Assembly: GCA_002070735.1 (NCBI GenBank)
Contig: MWDX01000007.1
Location: 1-37,279, forward strand
Length of the DNA stretch: 37,279 bases
Source: Parcubacteria group bacterium ADurb.Bin115
GTDB lineage: Bacteria; Patescibacteriota; Patescibacteriia; Patescibacteriales; UBA12465
Reading direction: 5' to 3'
Below the pieces are notes generated by a model, which was not told the DNA's origin, did not search any database, and worked only from the letters and a program-made list of their open reading frames with translations. The translations under genes were made by a program, and so were the position numbers. This document shows, piece by piece, positions 532 to 10,804 of this stretch (positions are counted from its first letter, which is position 1; every line of letters begins with the position of its first letter).

Positions 532-1044
532 TTATTGAAAAAAAGCAAGGGCCTCTTTTATGGTTTGAAGAAAATTTTTCTGATAATTATCATCAGAAAA
601 TCTATCTTTATATTCAGCCAAGTAAATATACTGACCGTGAGAATACTCATCCCAACTACCATCAAGATGATAATCCTTGTAGGACACAAGATCCTCAGGA
701 TCGTCCGTGCCTTCGGGATGAACAGAAATCATTAAGAATTCACAGCTCATCAGCAAGATGGGCTCACTGATATCCCATTGGTAGTAAACGCTGTAGCGTT
801 TGCCTTTATGGGTAAACACGGCATAGTGCTGTTTCAATTCCCGGCTGCCAGTGGCTACCTCCCCGGAGAGTAGAAACTTGTTATTATTTCTACTGTCCGT
901 AATTTGGATAGCTAACTGACGGACCAATCTGGTGCCAGTAGTGTCAATGCGACCGACTGAAACCAGGGGGTTAAAATAGAATGCCTGGGCGCTTAGAAAA
1001 CTTGCAGAAATGGTCAACAAGAACAACAAAGCTACTTTTTTCAT
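532..1044 (-). CDS. Orphan secreted protein of unknown function
   Basis: I do not recognise the family. The preferred start is the internal ATG at 1044, because it begins an obvious signal peptide (MKKVALLFLLTISASFLSAQ) with a predicted cleavage site just after. The longer frame to 1086 would put 14 polar residues in front of it. The mature part is about 150 residues. It is rich in Tyr, Asp and Ser, predicted to be beta-rich in its first half, and has an acidic stretch (HPEGTDDPEDL) near residue 115. Only one Cys is visible in the mature part. No enzyme motif is seen. The gene has its own terminator and sits alone between tRNA genes and the divergent rnhB. The leader ending in SAQ resembles Bacteroidetes secreted proteins, which makes lateral acquisition next to the tRNA/recombinase end possible but unproven. 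Confidence 0.7.
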   Translation of the reverse strand: MKKVALLFLLTISASFLSAQAFYFNPLVSVGRIDTTGTRLVRQLAIQITDSRNNNKFLLSGEVATGSRELKQHYAVFTHKGKRYSVYYQWDISEPILLMSCEFLMISVHPEGTDDPEDLVSYKDYHLDGSWDEYSHGQYIYLAEYKDRFSDDNYQKNFLQTIKEALAFFQ

Positions 1045-1143
1045 CTTATAATAAATTTTAGGGTTTAAATGTACGTGAATTAACAATTTAATGTATCATA
1101 ATTAAATATTTATGTCAATAAATAGTTAAAAAAACAAAGAAAA

Positions 1144-3948: not shown

Positions 3949-5127
3949 TTATGGCTTAAAAAATTTTCTGCCCTTCAGGGCGGCGGGCAGATATTCCTGA
4001 TTAGAATCATCTTCTAAAGGAGTATATTTATAATTTTTACCATAGCCCAAATCCTTCATCAACTTGGTGGGCGCATTGCGCAGATGTAAGGGTACCGGCA
4101 AATTGCCACTATTTCTTACTTCTGCCATGGCTTCATTGAAAGCCGCATAAACGGCAATGCTTTTAGGAGATTTTGCCAAATAAACTACGGCGTGGGCGAG
4201 ATGGACGCCACACTCTGGCATACCGATATTCTTGCAGGCCGCGAAAACCGCTTCTGTGAGCATGGCCGCACTATTATTTGCCAGACCGATATCCTCACTG
4301 GCGAAACGCACCAGACGCCGAGCGATATATACGGGGTCCTCACCCGCCTCCAGCATTCGCGCTAAATAATATAAAGACGCATCAGGATTATTACCGCGCA
4401 TTGATTTATGTAAAGCGGATATAAGATTATAGTGCTCTTCGCCACTCTTATCATAAAGTAAATTCGGCTTATTAACGATATCTTTAATAAGGCTGGCATC
4501 TATAATCTTTTGCCAAGAGGCGGCCTCTTCAATTAGACCAATAGCGCGGCGAGCGTCACCGTTAGCTAAGCGAGCGGCTAAGCGAACGGCTTCAACTTTT
4601 ATTTTAACCTGTAAAACTTTGGCCGCCCTCTTTATAATCAACGAAAGATCGTCTTCGGACAAGGCCTCAAGCAGCACCACTTTCAAACGCGAGAGCAAAG
4701 CGCCGTTAAGGGCAAAACTGGGATTTTCAGTAGTGGCGCCGATTAAAATAATCGTGCCGTTCTCTACTTGCGGCAGTAGCGCGTCTTGCTGGGATTTATT
4801 CCAACGATGAATTTCATCAATAAATAAAATTGTCTTTACTCCCAATCTTTTACCGGAACGCGCCTTTTCGACAATCTGCTTTAAATCCTTAACCCCGCTT
4901 TCCGTAGCCGACAATTCCACAAAATCCGCCTTAGTTTCTTTAGCAATTAAAAAAGCTAGAGTGGTTTTGCCGGAACCGGGAGGACCCCAGAAGACAAGCG
5001 AAGAAACACGATCATTTTTTATCGCTTGCACTAGCCAGCTATCACTGCGCAAGATATGCGTCTGACCGACTACTTCTTCTAGTTTTTTCGGCCGCAAATA
5101 GGCAGCCAAGGGCAAACCAGCAATCAT
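3949..5127 (-). CDS. rarA: Replication-associated recombination AAA+ ATPase RarA (MgsA)
   Basis: RarA is a tetrameric clamp-loader-like ATPase acting at stalled replication forks and single-strand gaps. The N-terminus MIAGLPLAAYLRPKKLEEVVGQTHIL is the standard opening of the family. Walker A is GPPGSGKTT, Walker B is LFIDEIHRW, sensor 1 is IGATTENPSF and the sensor 2 region follows LANGDARRA. The C-terminal MgsA domain includes MRGNNPDASLYYLARMLEAGEDP, RRLVRFASEDIGLA and the closing PTKLMKDLGYGKNYKY. Its 392 residues are slightly short of the usual 420-440. It is convergent with the response regulator, with only 1 nt between stop codons. A candidate minus-strand -10 (TATAAT at 5184-5189) overlaps the divergent plus-strand promoter. 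Confidence 0.95.
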   Translation of the reverse strand: MIAGLPLAAYLRPKKLEEVVGQTHILRSDSWLVQAIKNDRVSSLVFWGPPGSGKTTLAFLIAKETKADFVELSATESGVKDLKQIVEKARSGKRLGVKTILFIDEIHRWNKSQQDALLPQVENGTIILIGATTENPSFALNGALLSRLKVVLLEALSEDDLSLIIKRAAKVLQVKIKVEAVRLAARLANGDARRAIGLIEEAASWQKIIDASLIKDIVNKPNLLYDKSGEEHYNLISALHKSMRGNNPDASLYYLARMLEAGEDPVYIARRLVRFASEDIGLANNSAAMLTEAVFAACKNIGMPECGVHLAHAVVYLAKSPKSIAVYAAFNEAMAEVRNSGNLPVPLHLRNAPTKLMKDLGYGKNYKYTPLEDDSNQEYLPAALKGRKFFKP

Positions 5128-5167
5128 ACTCTCATATTGTATACTGATTCATATTTTCCGACCATTC

Positions 5168-5196
5168 TTGACAAAGTTTATATATTATAGTGTAAT
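5168..5196 (+). promoter_or_regulatory. Strong plus-strand promoter with no annotated gene
   Basis: A perfect -35 TTGACA (5168-5173) is followed after 17 nt by TGTAAT (5191-5196), so transcription should start near 5203. It is the best -35 box in the window, yet no conventional gene follows before the terminator at 5407-5440. Confidence 0.55.
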
Positions 5197-5202
5197 AAAA
5201 AT

Positions 5203-5440
5203 AATCTTAAAAATTCAAGCCATGAGAACAATAATAGAATTTTTTCGACTATTCTTATGGGCTCATGCCCTAAGAAAAAAAAGTAGCAAAAAGAGAAAAA
5301 GGAGATGCCAGGCTACAAAAAAATGGACTCTATTTAATCGCTCGCGCTCACACTCACAAGACTCTAGACCTGTATTTATGTAATTATTAAATAAAAACAG
5401 GGCAACAAAAAAGGCGATACTGACTAAGCATCGCCTTTTT
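5203..5440 (+). ncRNA. Candidate small RNA (or mRNA for a 53-residue basic peptide)
   Basis: The interval between divergent rarA and the convergent end of the RND operon has a promoter at 5168-5196 and a strong terminator at 5407-5440, defining a transcript of about 240 nt. It holds a hairpin at 5253-5277: GGGC and GCCC pair around TCAT, and TTCTTA and TAAGAA extend the stem with one bulged T. A second possible stem pairs GTAGC with GCTAC around 5283-5317. An ORF from 5222 to 5383 would encode a 53-residue peptide whose middle is very basic (RKKSSKKRKRR), but it lacks a Shine-Dalgarno sequence and its Lys bias could simply reflect poly-A tracts. I do not recognise a known RNA family (not SRP, RNase P or tmRNA by eye). 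Confidence 0.35.
5407..5440. terminator. Bidirectional terminator at the end of the RND operon
   Basis: GGCGAT (5413-5418) pairs with ATCGCC (5430-5435), flanked by six A on the left and five T on the right. It serves the minus-strand efflux operon and the plus-strand small transcript. Confidence 0.85.
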
Positions 5441-5454
5441 CTATAACATAATTT

Positions 5455-8400
5455 TTAATAACGCCCCTTGTCTTTAATAAATGTCATAAAAAGAGTGGGG
5501 ACGATAAACAAGGTCATAAAAGAAGAGAGCATTAAACCGAAAATAACTGATCCGCCCAAAGCTTGCCACATTTCATTAGATAAAGTAATTGGCAGGATTC
5601 CAAAAATCGTACAAATAGAAGTGATAAAAATTGCCTCCAAACGCGATTTGCCAGCGTCGACGATTGCATCCTTAAAAGGAATGCCGCTTCTTAAGTTTAA
5701 ATTTATTTTATCAACCAAAATAATTGCATTTTTTACCACAATCCCGAATAAAGCCAAAATACCAATAAGACCGGGGAAGGAAAGATTAATACCGGCAAGC
5801 GCCAATCCGAAAAATACGCCGATAAGAGCGAGGGGGATAGTAGTCAGAACAATCGCTGCTTTCTTAAAAGAATTAAACTGGATAACCAAAGTAGAAATAA
5901 TCAAGACAAAAGCCACTGCCATTGCGCGGATAATTGATAGCACTGATTCCTGGTTCTGCTCATTTTCGCCGCCATAAGAAATTTCATAATTATTCGGGAA
6001 TTGATAATCTTTAATTTTCTCTTGAAATTCTTTTAAAACTAAAGTTGAATTCGCTCCACCTTTAAGGCCGGCATTTAAAATAACCGTTCGCTTCTGGTCG
6101 ATTCTGGTGATGGTTTCCACCGAAGGCTTTAATTCTATTTTGGCAACGTCTTTAAGAAAGACCGGCTGCTTTTTCAAATTGATTATCTGTAAATTCTGGA
6201 TCGACTCCAGTGTTGGAATCTTGTCTTTAGCAAAACGTGCAATTACTTTTATTTCTTTGCCGTCCCTTAAAACAGTTGTCACTTCGGTACCGGAAATTGC
6301 CATGCGCAAAGTCGAACCGACATAGGCGGCATTCAGACTGTAAAGTTCCAAACGAGCAGGATCAAGAGTAAAAGTGTAATCAGCCGGTGACTCTTTCAAG
6401 GAAATATCAGTACTTACCACCTCAGGGATTGAACGCAAATAAACTTCTAAATCATTGGCAATCTTATCCAAGACCTGCAAATCATCACCTTTTATTTGCG
6501 CTTCAAAAGCGGCGCCGAAAGGCGGTCCGCCCGCTAGAGATTCCACTGTAATTTTAGCTGCTTTAATATCGCTCAAATCAGCCCTAATTTTATCTGCCAA
6601 CTGATAAGAAGTAATTTTGCGCTCATCAGTTTTACTCAGCTTAATCGTAATCGAGGCTAAGTGTGAAGAGTTATTCCCTCCCCCTAGACCGTTGAAAGAG
6701 GCGGAAGATCCAACTAGAGTGGTAAAATTTAAAATTTCCGGGTAAGCAAACAAACGCTGTTCGACTTGCGCGACAATCTTATCGGTTTCTTCTAAACGTA
6801 AACCAGAAGGCGCCTCTAAATTAATATACAAAACATCGGAATTGTAACTGGGAAAAAACTCACTCTTAATGATGCCGGTGGCAGGTAAGGAAACGGCGAC
6901 TAAAAATAGGAAAAATGTAACCGCCAAAGTAAGCAAACGACTGCGTTTAGTTGCTAAAAGCCGGCGCAGATATTTTTCATAATAAGGCAGAATGCGGTCA
7001 AAATGGATAACACCATGAAACAAGCGATTTAAAAAATTATTATTATCATGACTTCCCTGCTCACGTAATTTTTTCTTGATAGCATCATCATCTCGCCATT
7101 CCTGTTCTACTAGGACACTATTATTCTCTAATACTTTTTGGCCACGGTGGCGATACCAGCGTCCCAAAAAAATAACCGCTGCCAAAGAAGGTAGAGATAG
7201 GGCTAATTTCCAAACAATAGATAAAGGCAAAAACCAAACGCCTAAAGAAATTACAATCAAACCGACAAATAAAAAGGAGAATAATTTGCGCGTAAAACGG
7301 ATGCGCTCCAAAATAGCGGCTAAAGGATGGTTGATAATTAAAGCAATAATCAAAGAAGTGACTAAAGTAACAGACATGGTAATGGGAATTGATTTGATAA
7401 ATTCACCGATAATGCCGGTGGCGAGCAAAAGCGGCAAAAATGCCCAGACCGTAGTCAAAGTGGTGGTGGTTAAAACCATCTTAAAATCATTCAATACCAA
7501 TAAAACAGCTTCTTCTGGGGTAAACTTGCCAGAACGAAGATATTGCTTGGTGGCGGAAACGACAACGATAGCATCATCAACCAATAAGCCTAAAGCTAAA
7601 ATCAACGAAAATAAAGACAAGAAATTAAGACTAATGTCGGTCATCAACATCACACCGAAAGTCGCAAAAAATACCAACGGAATAGCTAATCCCGCCACTA
7701 AAGCTTCCTTAAATCCAACTATTAAGAAAAGAATCGTGAAAACCAACAATAGAGTCAAAATAAAATCATGAGTTAATTGATTAAAATCTTGATTAATCTG
7801 ATCGGCGGCATTATAAGTAATTTCATAAGTAGCCCCTGGAAGCGCTTTGGTCATCCGGTCAAGGATTGTCTGTACCTCCGCGGAAATATCCAGAATGGAG
7901 CCTCCGGTCTTTTTGATAATCTGCAGATTGATATTATCTTGACCGCCATTTTCCCTAGTAGCTAAACGAGAATATACGCTCTTTTTAATGGCTGTTTCTT
8001 TGACCGAAGCAACATCTTTTAAATAAATAATAGCGCCGTCATCGGTATGAAATAAAGGAGTGTTGCCAAGCTTGGTAGCATCAAAAAAACGTCCGTCTAC
8101 GCGGACTGGATATGAATACTCTCGGCCTTCAAAAGTGCCGGCCGGAATTGCTAGATTAGCAGCCGCCACCAGTTGATTAGCGGCGTCGGCTGATAAATTA
8201 AAAAATGTTAGTTTTTGGGGATCATAAGCAATCTCAAATTCAGTTTCCTCGCCTCCGGAAATAATCACTTCGCGCACCCCCGCAATCTTTTCTAATTCAT
8301 CGCGCACATCTTCGCCAAAACTGCGCAATCTGAAACCGTCATAAGGAGCGGCTAGTGATATAGTAATGATAGGAGTGTCATCCAAAGAAATTTCTTTAAC

Positions 8401-8895
8401 TATCGGATCATTAACGTCGCTAGGCAGGGTTCCTTTGAGACTATTGACCTGATCACGCAGACTGCGTAAAGAATCATTAAGATCGGCCTTGGAACTAAAT
8501 TCAACCGTAATCGCCGAGACAGAATTGGAGGAATTAGAAGTAATTTTATCGACATCCTTGATTCCAGAAATCTTGGTTTCAATTTTTTTGGTAACTAACT
8601 CCTCAACATCCGCCGGAGAGGCGCCGGGATAAACTGTCATAACAACAGCAATCGGAATTTTTACTTCCGGACTGGATTCACGCGGTAAAGAAAAGAAAGA
8701 ATAAAGTCCTAAAGCGGTTAAGAGAATAATAAGTAAAATGACAACCCGAAAATTAACAATAAAAAAATTGAGCCAACTCTTGCGGAGAGCCGGGTCGAAC
8801 TCCAACTTTTTTAAATAAAGGTGATCGGAAGTTTTAGCAATAGTCGTTTCCTCCGCCAGGCCAGCTTCTTGGGGTTTATGTAAATTAATTTCCAT
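5455..8895 (-). CDS. RND-superfamily efflux pump, HAE1/AcrB-like
   Basis: This is a proton-driven multidrug/amphiphile exporter of the cytoplasmic membrane. The start chosen is ATG at 8895, 4 nt after the adaptor stop; the longer frame to 8952 would overlap the adaptor. The 1146-residue protein shows the RND duplication. A first TM and PRESSPEVKIP are followed by YPGASPADVEELVTKKIE, two large porter loops and two TM blocks. TM4 has GLLVDDAIVVV with the two proton-relay aspartates, and TM10 has FGIVVKNAIILVDK with the partner lysine, so it should be active. The central cytoplasmic region is unusual: after the first half two extra hydrophobic stretches (around LFVGLIVISLGVWFL and LSLPSLAAVIFLG) precede a charged linker. 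No outer-membrane TolC gene accompanies it, as expected for a monoderm envelope. Confidence 0.93.
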   Translation of the reverse strand: MEINLHKPQEAGLAEETTIAKTSDHLYLKKLEFDPALRKSWLNFFIVNFRVVILLIILLTALGLYSFFSLPRESSPEVKIPIAVVMTVYPGASPADVEELVTKKIETKISGIKDVDKITSNSSNSVSAITVEFSSKADLNDSLRSLRDQVNSLKGTLPSDVNDPIVKEISLDDTPIITISLAAPYDGFRLRSFGEDVRDELEKIAGVREVIISGGEETEFEIAYDPQKLTFFNLSADAANQLVAAANLAIPAGTFEGREYSYPVRVDGRFFDATKLGNTPLFHTDDGAIIYLKDVASVKETAIKKSVYSRLATRENGGQDNINLQIIKKTGGSILDISAEVQTILDRMTKALPGATYEITYNAADQINQDFNQLTHDFILTLLLVFTILFLIVGFKEALVAGLAIPLVFFATFGVMLMTDISLNFLSLFSLILALGLLVDDAIVVVSATKQYLRSGKFTPEEAVLLVLNDFKMVLTTTTLTTVWAFLPLLLATGIIGEFIKSIPITMSVTLVTSLIIALIINHPLAAILERIRFTRKLFSFLFVGLIVISLGVWFLPLSIVWKLALSLPSLAAVIFLGRWYRHRGQKVLENNSVLVEQEWRDDDAIKKKLREQGSHDNNNFLNRLFHGVIHFDRILPYYEKYLRRLLATKRSRLLTLAVTFFLFLVAVSLPATGIIKSEFFPSYNSDVLYINLEAPSGLRLEETDKIVAQVEQRLFAYPEILNFTTLVGSSASFNGLGGGNNSSHLASITIKLSKTDERKITSYQLADKIRADLSDIKAAKITVESLAGGPPFGAAFEAQIKGDDLQVLDKIANDLEVYLRSIPEVVSTDISLKESPADYTFTLDPARLELYSLNAAYVGSTLRMAISGTEVTTVLRDGKEIKVIARFAKDKIPTLESIQNLQIINLKKQPVFLKDVAKIELKPSVETITRIDQKRTVILNAGLKGGANSTLVLKEFQEKIKDYQFPNNYEISYGGENEQNQESVLSIIRAMAVAFVLIISTLVIQFNSFKKAAIVLTTIPLALIGVFFGLALAGINLSFPGLIGILALFGIVVKNAIILVDKINLNLRSGIPFKDAIVDAGKSRLEAIFITSICTIFGILPITLSNEMWQALGGSVIFGLMLSSFMTLFIVPTLFMTFIKDKGRY

Positions 8896-8899
8896 ATAT

Positions 8900-10804
8900 T
8901 TAAGCACTCGCCTCAACGACATCGCCGTCGCGCAGCAATTTATTACCCTCAATAATCAAAATAGCGTCAGCCGGCGCTTCTACTTTTATTTGCGCCCTTT
9001 CTCCTAAAACTTTCTGTAGTTCCACCGGCACTTTACGCGCTTTCCCGTCCTCAAATAAAAAGATAAAATTACCATTCTGACCTATTTCCAAAGAAGACAA
9101 AGGCACGATAGCCTCGCCGTCACCGCTGGCGACGCTTTTTTCTAAAGACAATTTGACGCTCACCACTGTGCCTAATAAAGGCTTAGCCTGATCATCCAAC
9201 TTGACCTCCACCTGGAAACGCTTGGTGGCATTGTCGGCTTGAGCAGCGACGGAAGAAATTAAGCCGGCATATGACTGCCCGTCAGCAGATAAAACTTCTA
9301 CCGGAGTGCCCAATTTCATATCTAGGACATATTCCGGTTCAACAAAAAATCTCACTTTAAGATTATCAACTTGACTGACAACTGCTACCACTTGTCCCGC
9401 GCTAACGGTATCGCCGTTATTAGCCAATTTTTGAGTAACTCTACCAACAATCGGCGAAACTATGGAATGAATATCATATAGACTCTGCAAAGCGACCAAG
9501 GCATTATTATACTGCAACTGGGCCGCATCCATCTGTGCTTTAGCCGCTAATATCTGGGAATCAAGCTTAACTTTTAAATTCTCATATTGATTCTGAGCAA
9601 GGCTGACAGAAAATCCCGCCTGATCGCTCTGACTATTATTACCGGCTTTGAGATTATTCAAGTTCTGTTGAGCAATGGCTTCCTGCTTCTTAGCTAATTC
9701 ATAGGCTTGCTTGAGGGCATCCAGAGTGCTGTCGTTGCTTAAAGCGACGTTAGCTAAAGCTTGAGCTGCTCCTCGAGCTTGGCCGATGACGGCGTTAAGC
9801 TGAGATTGATAAGAGGCAGCTGCCGATTGCAAACCGGAAAGAGAAACGCCAGTCGCGGCTGATTGCGGCAAAACAGAGGAAGGGATACTCTTATCAAATA
9901 AATACTTACTGCTATCAGCTAACTTTTTTACCTTTTCCGCTAAATCTATAGCTGCTTGCAAGCGCTCAGAAATATCCGAAAAACTAGTCGTCTGATAAAC
10001 ATCGTAAGCGCTTTTAGCAGCTTGATAATCATTGTCGGCCTGATTATAGGAATTGGAATCAAGAGCCCCGAGATTACCGCGATAGGCAATAGAGACCACG
10101 TTATTATCATCAAAAGCGGCTAAATTATTAATCCCGGTAAGAACATTGCCGGCCGTATTAACAGCCGCGGTAGCAGCTAAGTCGGCATTATCATTAGCAT
10201 CAAGACTTCCCTGTTGCATCTGCTTCTGGCGATTAAGCAAGGATAAGCGCGCCTGCTCAGTAGCAATCTTGGCGGTTTCATAGGCCAATTCAGCGCTCTT
10301 TAGACTTTCTTCTGAAGTCGTATTTAAATGAGATTGAGCATTTTTTGCCTGATCGCGAGCGATTTCTGCCTGATGCAAGTCTTTAGCCGAAGACACAAGC
10401 AAATTTTCGTAATTAGAGCGCGCCAATTGATAAAATGATTGCGCCTGCTCCACGGCAATAATGGCTTGTTTTATCTGATTGCTATTGATACCGTCAGTAC
10501 TGAATCCGGACGAACCAATATCATCGATACGAGCCAGAGTCTGGCCAATTTTCACTTCATCGCCAACCTTAAAATCGGCTCCAGAAAGATTACCAGAACT
10601 CTTCGCTACTAGTTTCGCCTCAGTACTGGCGGAAACAATCGCCGGATATTCTAAATCTTGCCTTATTTCCTTGCTGTCAGCCAAACTCTGTGTTTTCACC
10701 TTTATCGCTGACGGCGTCGGTTCCGCCACTGGTTGGGAAGTACCACAACCAGAAAAAAGAAGAGATAAAACTAACACTGCTAATAAACTAAGATTTTTTT
10801 TCAT
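8900..10804 (-). CDS. RND efflux adaptor (membrane fusion) lipoprotein
   Basis: This is the HlyD/AcrA-type adaptor working with the downstream RND pump. The start is the ATG at 10804, because it opens a lipoprotein signal peptide whose lipobox is LFSG-C20. The upstream frame to 10834 adds only ten unlikely residues. After the lipidated Cys, a biotinyl-lipoyl-like barrel half contains LVAKSSGNLSGADFKVGDEVKIGQ. A very long alpha-helical coiled-coil part (roughly residues 90-430, rich in Ala, Gln and Asn) follows, then the second barrel half (SPIVGRVTQKLANNGDTVSAGQ) and beta-barrel/proximal domains. At 634 residues it is much longer than AcrA (about 400) because of the extended helical region. 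Its start overlaps the marR stop by 17 nt and its stop is 4 nt before the pump start, so the three genes are translationally linked. Confidence 0.92.
   Translation of the reverse strand: MKKNLSLLAVLVLSLLFSGCGTSQPVAEPTPSAIKVKTQSLADSKEIRQDLEYPAIVSASTEAKLVAKSSGNLSGADFKVGDEVKIGQTLARIDDIGSSGFSTDGINSNQIKQAIIAVEQAQSFYQLARSNYENLLVSSAKDLHQAEIARDQAKNAQSHLNTTSEESLKSAELAYETAKIATEQARLSLLNRQKQMQQGSLDANDNADLAATAAVNTAGNVLTGINNLAAFDDNNVVSIAYRGNLGALDSNSYNQADNDYQAAKSAYDVYQTTSFSDISERLQAAIDLAEKVKKLADSSKYLFDKSIPSSVLPQSAATGVSLSGLQSAAASYQSQLNAVIGQARGAAQALANVALSNDSTLDALKQAYELAKKQEAIAQQNLNNLKAGNNSQSDQAGFSVSLAQNQYENLKVKLDSQILAAKAQMDAAQLQYNNALVALQSLYDIHSIVSPIVGRVTQKLANNGDTVSAGQVVAVVSQVDNLKVRFFVEPEYVLDMKLGTPVEVLSADGQSYAGLISSVAAQADNATKRFQVEVKLDDQAKPLLGTVVSVKLSLEKSVASGDGEAIVPLSSLEIGQNGNFIFLFEDGKARKVPVELQKVLGERAQIKVEAPADAILIIEGNKLLRDGDVVEASA

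Follow-up and report, generated by a model that had tools for sequence, protein, structure and literature searches.

What, if anything, is encoded between rarA and the gene of an RND permease in the genome of Parcubacteria group bacterium ADurb.Bin115? The window analysed here (positions 1 to 37,279 of contig MWDX01000007.1, C7, a stretch of 37,279 nt) comes from a 0.76-Mb genome that is 97.5% complete. Its positions 5168–5440 lie between rarA (3949–5127) and the permease gene (5455–8952), which are both on the minus strand and are named from our own reading of their translations. A sequence-only reading of the window had placed a promoter, an open reading frame (ORF), a hairpin and a terminator here on the plus strand, and proposed as the product either a new small RNA or a tiny basic protein. 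All four elements were found at the positions given (Table 1). Comparison with related genomes indicates that 5168–5440 is a single-gene transcription unit, consisting of a conserved promoter, a terminator and, between them, a conserved short reading frame held by purifying selection. The frame is in all probability a real, conserved protein gene, and the second of the two proposed products was the right one. Literature searches listed no paper on this microprotein gene.

The genus was sampled by eight genomes, G000 (the window genome) to G007, and a wider search covered 111 genomes of the order. The nearest named relatives by RarA are metagenome-assembled genomes (MAGs) labelled 'Candidatus Falkowbacteria' and 'Patescibacteria group', and RarA sequences across the genus are 81–90% identical to that of the window. 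A contig titled Planctomycetota (L046, JALOQQ010000006.1) also carries a RarA that is 66% identical to this Patescibacteria protein, and is probably from a mislabelled or mixed MAG.

Table 1. Coordinates of the elements at the microprotein locus, in window numbering.
Feature	Position	Strand	Basis or remark
Promoter TTGACA-N17-TGTAAT with G at −11	5168–5196	+	Conserved in the genus and in G009
Microprotein gene, 53 residues in the window genome	5222–5383	+	Positional homologues in five other congeners; pS 0.71, pN 0.28
Conserved 20-codon core: hydrophobic helix, W13, R18-K19-K20	5222–5281	+	Invariant residues, predicted helix
Hairpin of the sequence-only reading	5253–5277	+	Pairing not conserved; most likely incidental to the coding sequence
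C-terminal tail, residues 21–53, largely peculiar to the window genome	5282–5380	+	Comparison with G003 and others
Bidirectional intrinsic terminator of the microprotein gene (+) and the RND gene (−)	5408–5440		A tract before, T tract after

The microprotein gene and its homologues

The ORF starts with ATG and has 53 codons plus a stop, and its frame stays open upstream as far as a TTG within the promoter (5168). One copy of the gene is found at the same site, divergent from rarA, in six of the eight genomes of the genus, with products of 23–53 residues. The microprotein of G000 (53 residues) begins MRTIIEFFRLFLWAHALRKK and that of G002 (44 residues) ends IDKLIEGMKLIIWVYNIRKKLAKNRLE, while the remaining four are MKIIEFFKLFLWARSIRKKETKNM (G003, 24 residues), MKKGITIIKLFIWAHGIRKKRSKSYFIKK (G005, 29 residues), MKKIIEIIFLFIWARKMRKKINR (G007, 23 residues) and MKKAIEIIKLVIWAYTTRKKILKSPRERLY (G006, 30 residues). 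A profile search of the genus returned exactly these six members (E values 2.6e-11 to 6.8e-17; next match 0.04), and at E 5e-4 the 111 genomes of the order yielded no further member. The gene is absent from G001 and from G004, the latter with a completeness of 100%. In G009, a genome outside the genus, a candidate peptide lies behind the same promoter, in a frame that runs into the contig end. It is not reported by the profile and gives z 4.5 (p 5e-5) in a position-matched shuffle test, making it a probable seventh member. No match near the curated cut-off was obtained in Pfam or NCBIfam, and none at the cut-off in PHROGs (three of the six microproteins scanned).

If the frame encodes a protein, its homologues might be expected to show conservation with synonymous-site bias, the check put forward in the sequence-only reading, and synonymous changes do outrun amino-acid changes. 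Across the 18 codons that align without gaps in the six sequences, the pooled proportions of changed synonymous (pS) and non-synonymous (pN) sites are 0.71 and 0.28, values that are inflated by relatedness. This inflation does not affect three pairs that share no branches of the RarA tree, in which 23 of 31 synonymous and 30 of 131 non-synonymous sites are changed (Fisher p 1.5e-7; the pairs taken singly give 0.009, 7e-5 and 0.13; all pair tests use rounded site counts). The frame contains no stops and its BLOSUM score exceeds that of every column shuffle (0/5000, z 4.3), while the other five frames contain stops and score far lower.

The conserved part of the peptide comprises the hydrophobic helix with W13 and the RKK that follows it. 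Residues I5, L10, W13, R18, K19 and K20 are invariant in all six rows, and a helix is predicted at about residues 4–17 (mean predicted local distance difference test score, pLDDT, 89 for residues 1–10 and 82 for residues 11–20), residue 6 being acidic and residue 9 basic in most species. The Kyte-Doolittle mean is 1.6–2.7 over 11 core residues, and the net charge after the tryptophan ranges from +4 to +13, the highest value (+13 after W13) reflecting the strongly basic tail of G000. The G003 peptide stops five residues past RKK, whereas that of G000 runs 29 residues longer, to residue 53, and the two tails give no convincing alignment. The G000 tail could derive from a recent stop loss, from inserted sequence or from misassembly near the A8 run at 5278–5285. 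Of the 'very basic core' described previously, the RKK of residues 18–20 is present in all six peptides, but the basic stretch past about residue 24 is found only in G000.

Weak matches in G000 and other genomes, considered as putative paralogues, were dropped: they are interrupted by stops, form part of longer frames or share only a short run like WAYSFRKK, and none of those examined is beside rarA or behind such a promoter. A 21-residue hydrophobic ORF upstream of rarA (L013, in G034) was also dropped, as it has neither such a promoter nor a basic tail. WAYSFRKK-like runs (WA.SF.KK) were seen in open frames of 26–46 codons at L145–L148 (G004, G002, G006 and G005), below the threshold of the microprotein profile, and probably represent another frame of a conserved gene.

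Signals for transcription and translation

The promoter consists of TTGACA (5168–5173), a 17-nt spacer and TGTAAT (5191–5196). The pattern TTGACA-N17-TGTA(A/C)T is kept at the locus in seven of the eight congeners, which places the promoter beyond chance, and it also occurs in G009. Pairwise difference is 2.4% in the hexamers compared with 55% in the spacer (seven rows: six congeners and G009, the near-identical G003 being left out). A consensus promoter scan did not list this site, as it accepts only A at −11, the second position of the −10 hexamer, where this site has G. In the eight genomes, 81 sites match TTGACA-N17-TNTAAT, and by our own count of the listing the second base of the −10 hexamer is A in 69, T in 5, C in 1 and G in 6; the reversed promoter pattern, used as a control, gives nine matches in total. 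All six of the −11G sites of this form are those of the microprotein locus. The 69 A-form sites show that a housekeeping form exists in the genus, while the microprotein locus keeps a deviation at the base that matters most for melting, an effect measured for A to T (PMC3753650). Melting starts with the flipping out of the A at −11.

Judged by its retention among relatives, G at −11 is a conserved state and not a product of decay. The promoter is probably weak. Across the family, 10 of 18 TTGACA-N17-TGTA(A/C)T sites are away from this locus; some precede other genes, suggesting that the −11G form can probably work, and none of the 10 precedes a microprotein of this kind. The sequence-only reading had placed the promoter above those of many annotated genes in the window; with its G at −11, it was overrated. 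That transcription is likely, as the sequence-only reading also held, is well supported.

Promoters of the TTGACA-N17-TGTA(A/C)T form also stand before genes at L185 and L186, which, like window 532–1086 (minus strand), encode short secreted-type proteins. Their signal peptides terminate in AQ or GQ, a pattern typical of Bacteroidota.

A stem of −15.2 kcal/mol leading into a T tract forms the terminator, in agreement with the earlier prediction. A hairpin and T tract follow the microprotein stop in all six loci, with different sequences in the other five. The terminator can also end the convergent RND gene, which finishes at 5455. It was unlisted by the terminator scan, probably because the scan allows loops of at most 8. 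No motif resembling a Shine-Dalgarno sequence precedes the microprotein ORF, and none was found within 20 nt upstream of any of 19 other window genes examined, so that its absence here is normal. Just upstream of rarA (window 5125–5148), the motif TATTGTATACTGA is kept in all eight congeners. It includes, on the minus strand, a −10-like TACAAT whose end lies about 8 nt upstream of the rarA ATG, suggesting that the rarA mRNA is probably leaderless.

An adjacent membrane-protein gene and the possible role of the microprotein

In three of the six genomes with the microprotein (G007, G002 and G006), its gene is directly preceded by one for a membrane protein. The microprotein ATG overlaps the membrane-protein stop (ATGA) in G007 and G002, and the two genes are separated by 3 nt in G006. 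The membrane protein is a fast-evolving, multi-helix protein of about 150 residues. Its profile matches four of the eight congeners (G001, G002, G006 and G007; the other three sequences are 24–33% identical to that of G007), with no match in G000, G003, G005 or G004 at E 0.01. The AlphaFold model is poor (mean pLDDT 57), none of the four proteins has a Pfam or NCBIfam match near the cut-off, and PHROGs gave only weak, partial matches of unknown function. The RarA tree groups the genomes as {G002,(G005,G006)} and {(G000,G003),(G007,(G001,G004))}, some forks having support near 85. On this tree, the membrane-protein gene would have been lost at least twice, from G005 and from the ancestor of G000 and G003, with promoter and microprotein retained; its repeated gain in front of the microprotein is a less simple alternative. 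In another genus (G035, loci L017/L047), a different multi-helix protein, of 168 residues, is encoded divergently from rarA, without a microprotein.

We consider the product to be a membrane-anchored accessory or regulatory microprotein, of a new family but a known kind, an assignment we favour with only slightly better than even confidence. Transcription would begin near 5203, with the G at −11 keeping the promoter weak, and translation would initiate at the ATG at 5222 with no Shine-Dalgarno sequence, as seems usual here. The peptide would insert a single short hydrophobic helix (about residues 4–17) into the cytoplasmic membrane, with the RKK tail on the cytoplasmic side, and would most likely assist or regulate a membrane complex as one of its small subunits. 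In the ancestral operon the gene would have been accompanied by that of the multi-helix membrane protein, likely the original partner. Because that partner appears to have been lost at least twice without loss of the microprotein or its promoter, the microprotein probably acts on a different target or has an independent function.

Several points weigh against this assignment. Both the peptide and its transcript are predictions, and absence from two congeners means that the microprotein is dispensable. At about 11–14 residues, two of them charged, the hydrophobic stretch is short for a transmembrane segment, and the predicted helix does not appear to be an amphipathic surface helix either, the hydrophobic moment being no higher than in shuffles in seven of seven peptides (p > 0.5). 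The −11G promoter could be nearly silent, and the 29 extra residues of G000 may reflect decay of the gene or misassembly near the A8 run.

The chief rival, which we regard as unlikely, is a type-I-toxin-like role, in which a small hydrophobic, cationic peptide perturbs the membrane and is kept low by the weak promoter or by an RNA antitoxin. Sporadic loss of the gene and the probable weakness of the promoter would suit such a role. However, no antisense promoter-like site was found over the gene in five of the six loci (one weak site lies downstream in G005), although an antitoxin encoded in trans, or one with a non-consensus promoter, may exist; the gene is also a single chromosomal copy, conserved in sequence and position.

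Somewhat less likely still, the gene could be a decaying relic in the window genome, where the stop has been lost, the partner gene is gone and the promoter is weak. The tail is not conserved, the membrane-protein gene is missing from G000, and full decay does happen, as seen in G004. On the other hand, the G000–G003 pair alone shows changes at 6 of 11 synonymous compared with 6 of 43 non-synonymous sites (p 0.009), and the promoter hexamers are intact, with −11G a conserved state. More speculatively, and with rather little probability, the product may be a stand-alone, membrane-active peptide of the type I toxin kind, delivered at low dose from its own promoter, in which −11G would itself be selected for, and acting as a lineage-specific switch for growth or dormancy that has outlasted its former membrane-protein partner.

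A regulator of the neighbouring RND pump, similar to AcrZ, is improbable. In each of the four genomes that carry both the close RND protein and the microprotein (G000, G003, G007 and G002), the RND gene is the convergent neighbour. The linkage is weak, since the microprotein persists without that pump in G005, where no RND match was obtained at 1e-20, and in G006, which has only a 37% relative elsewhere; there the neighbour is another gene. Moreover, convergent genes that share a terminator are not co-transcribed.

A structured small RNA with an incidental reading frame is very improbable, as changes follow codon positions, the hairpin at 5253–5277 is not conserved and no Rfam family reaches the gathering score at this locus, even though the unit as a whole is more stably folded than its dinucleotide shuffles (z −2.98; 2 of 200 equally good), in good part through its terminator. 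The hairpin (10 bp with one bulge) pairs in 50% of cells across the loci, at chance level compared with 53% for shuffled partners, and the covariation search that had been suggested revealed no compensatory change, none of the 10 pairs being altered on both sides. Six weak Rfam matches on the other strand, mostly on the terminator, were all far below gathering and were set aside.

Genes of 20–50 codons are easily missed in uncultured bacteria, and a ribosome-binding site is no guide in this lineage. This one was revealed by position, promoter, codon pattern and terminator combined. With its G at −11 and freely changing spacer, the promoter offers a concrete case for asking whether such bacteria keep some promoters weak on purpose.

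Comparison with known small membrane proteins

SpoVM is an amphipathic surface helix. The microproteins resemble it in size and charge, but a helix of this type is not supported by the hydrophobic moments of the seven peptides. AcrZ, a tiny membrane peptide, is the small partner of the AcrB RND pump. The likeness here lies in a tiny predicted membrane peptide encoded beside an RND gene in four genomes; unlike AcrZ, the microprotein is present without that RND protein in two of six genomes, and its profile matched no AcrZ-type chain among PDB sequences. CydX and KdpF are small subunits whose genes share an operon with that of a large membrane protein. A similar arrangement is seen in the three genomes where the microprotein start overlaps the end of the membrane-protein gene or lies 3 nt from it, although in the other three the microprotein is kept without that gene.

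Type I toxins such as TisB, Ldr, Fst and AapA1 are likewise under 60 residues, with a hydrophobic helix and a cationic C-terminus, as described in a review (PMC8309996). In size, helix and charge the microproteins (23–53 residues, predicted helix) agree with them, the membrane span being only putative. They differ in the missing antisense promoter signal at five of six loci, in their single conserved chromosomal locus and in their ancestral linkage to a multi-helix membrane protein.
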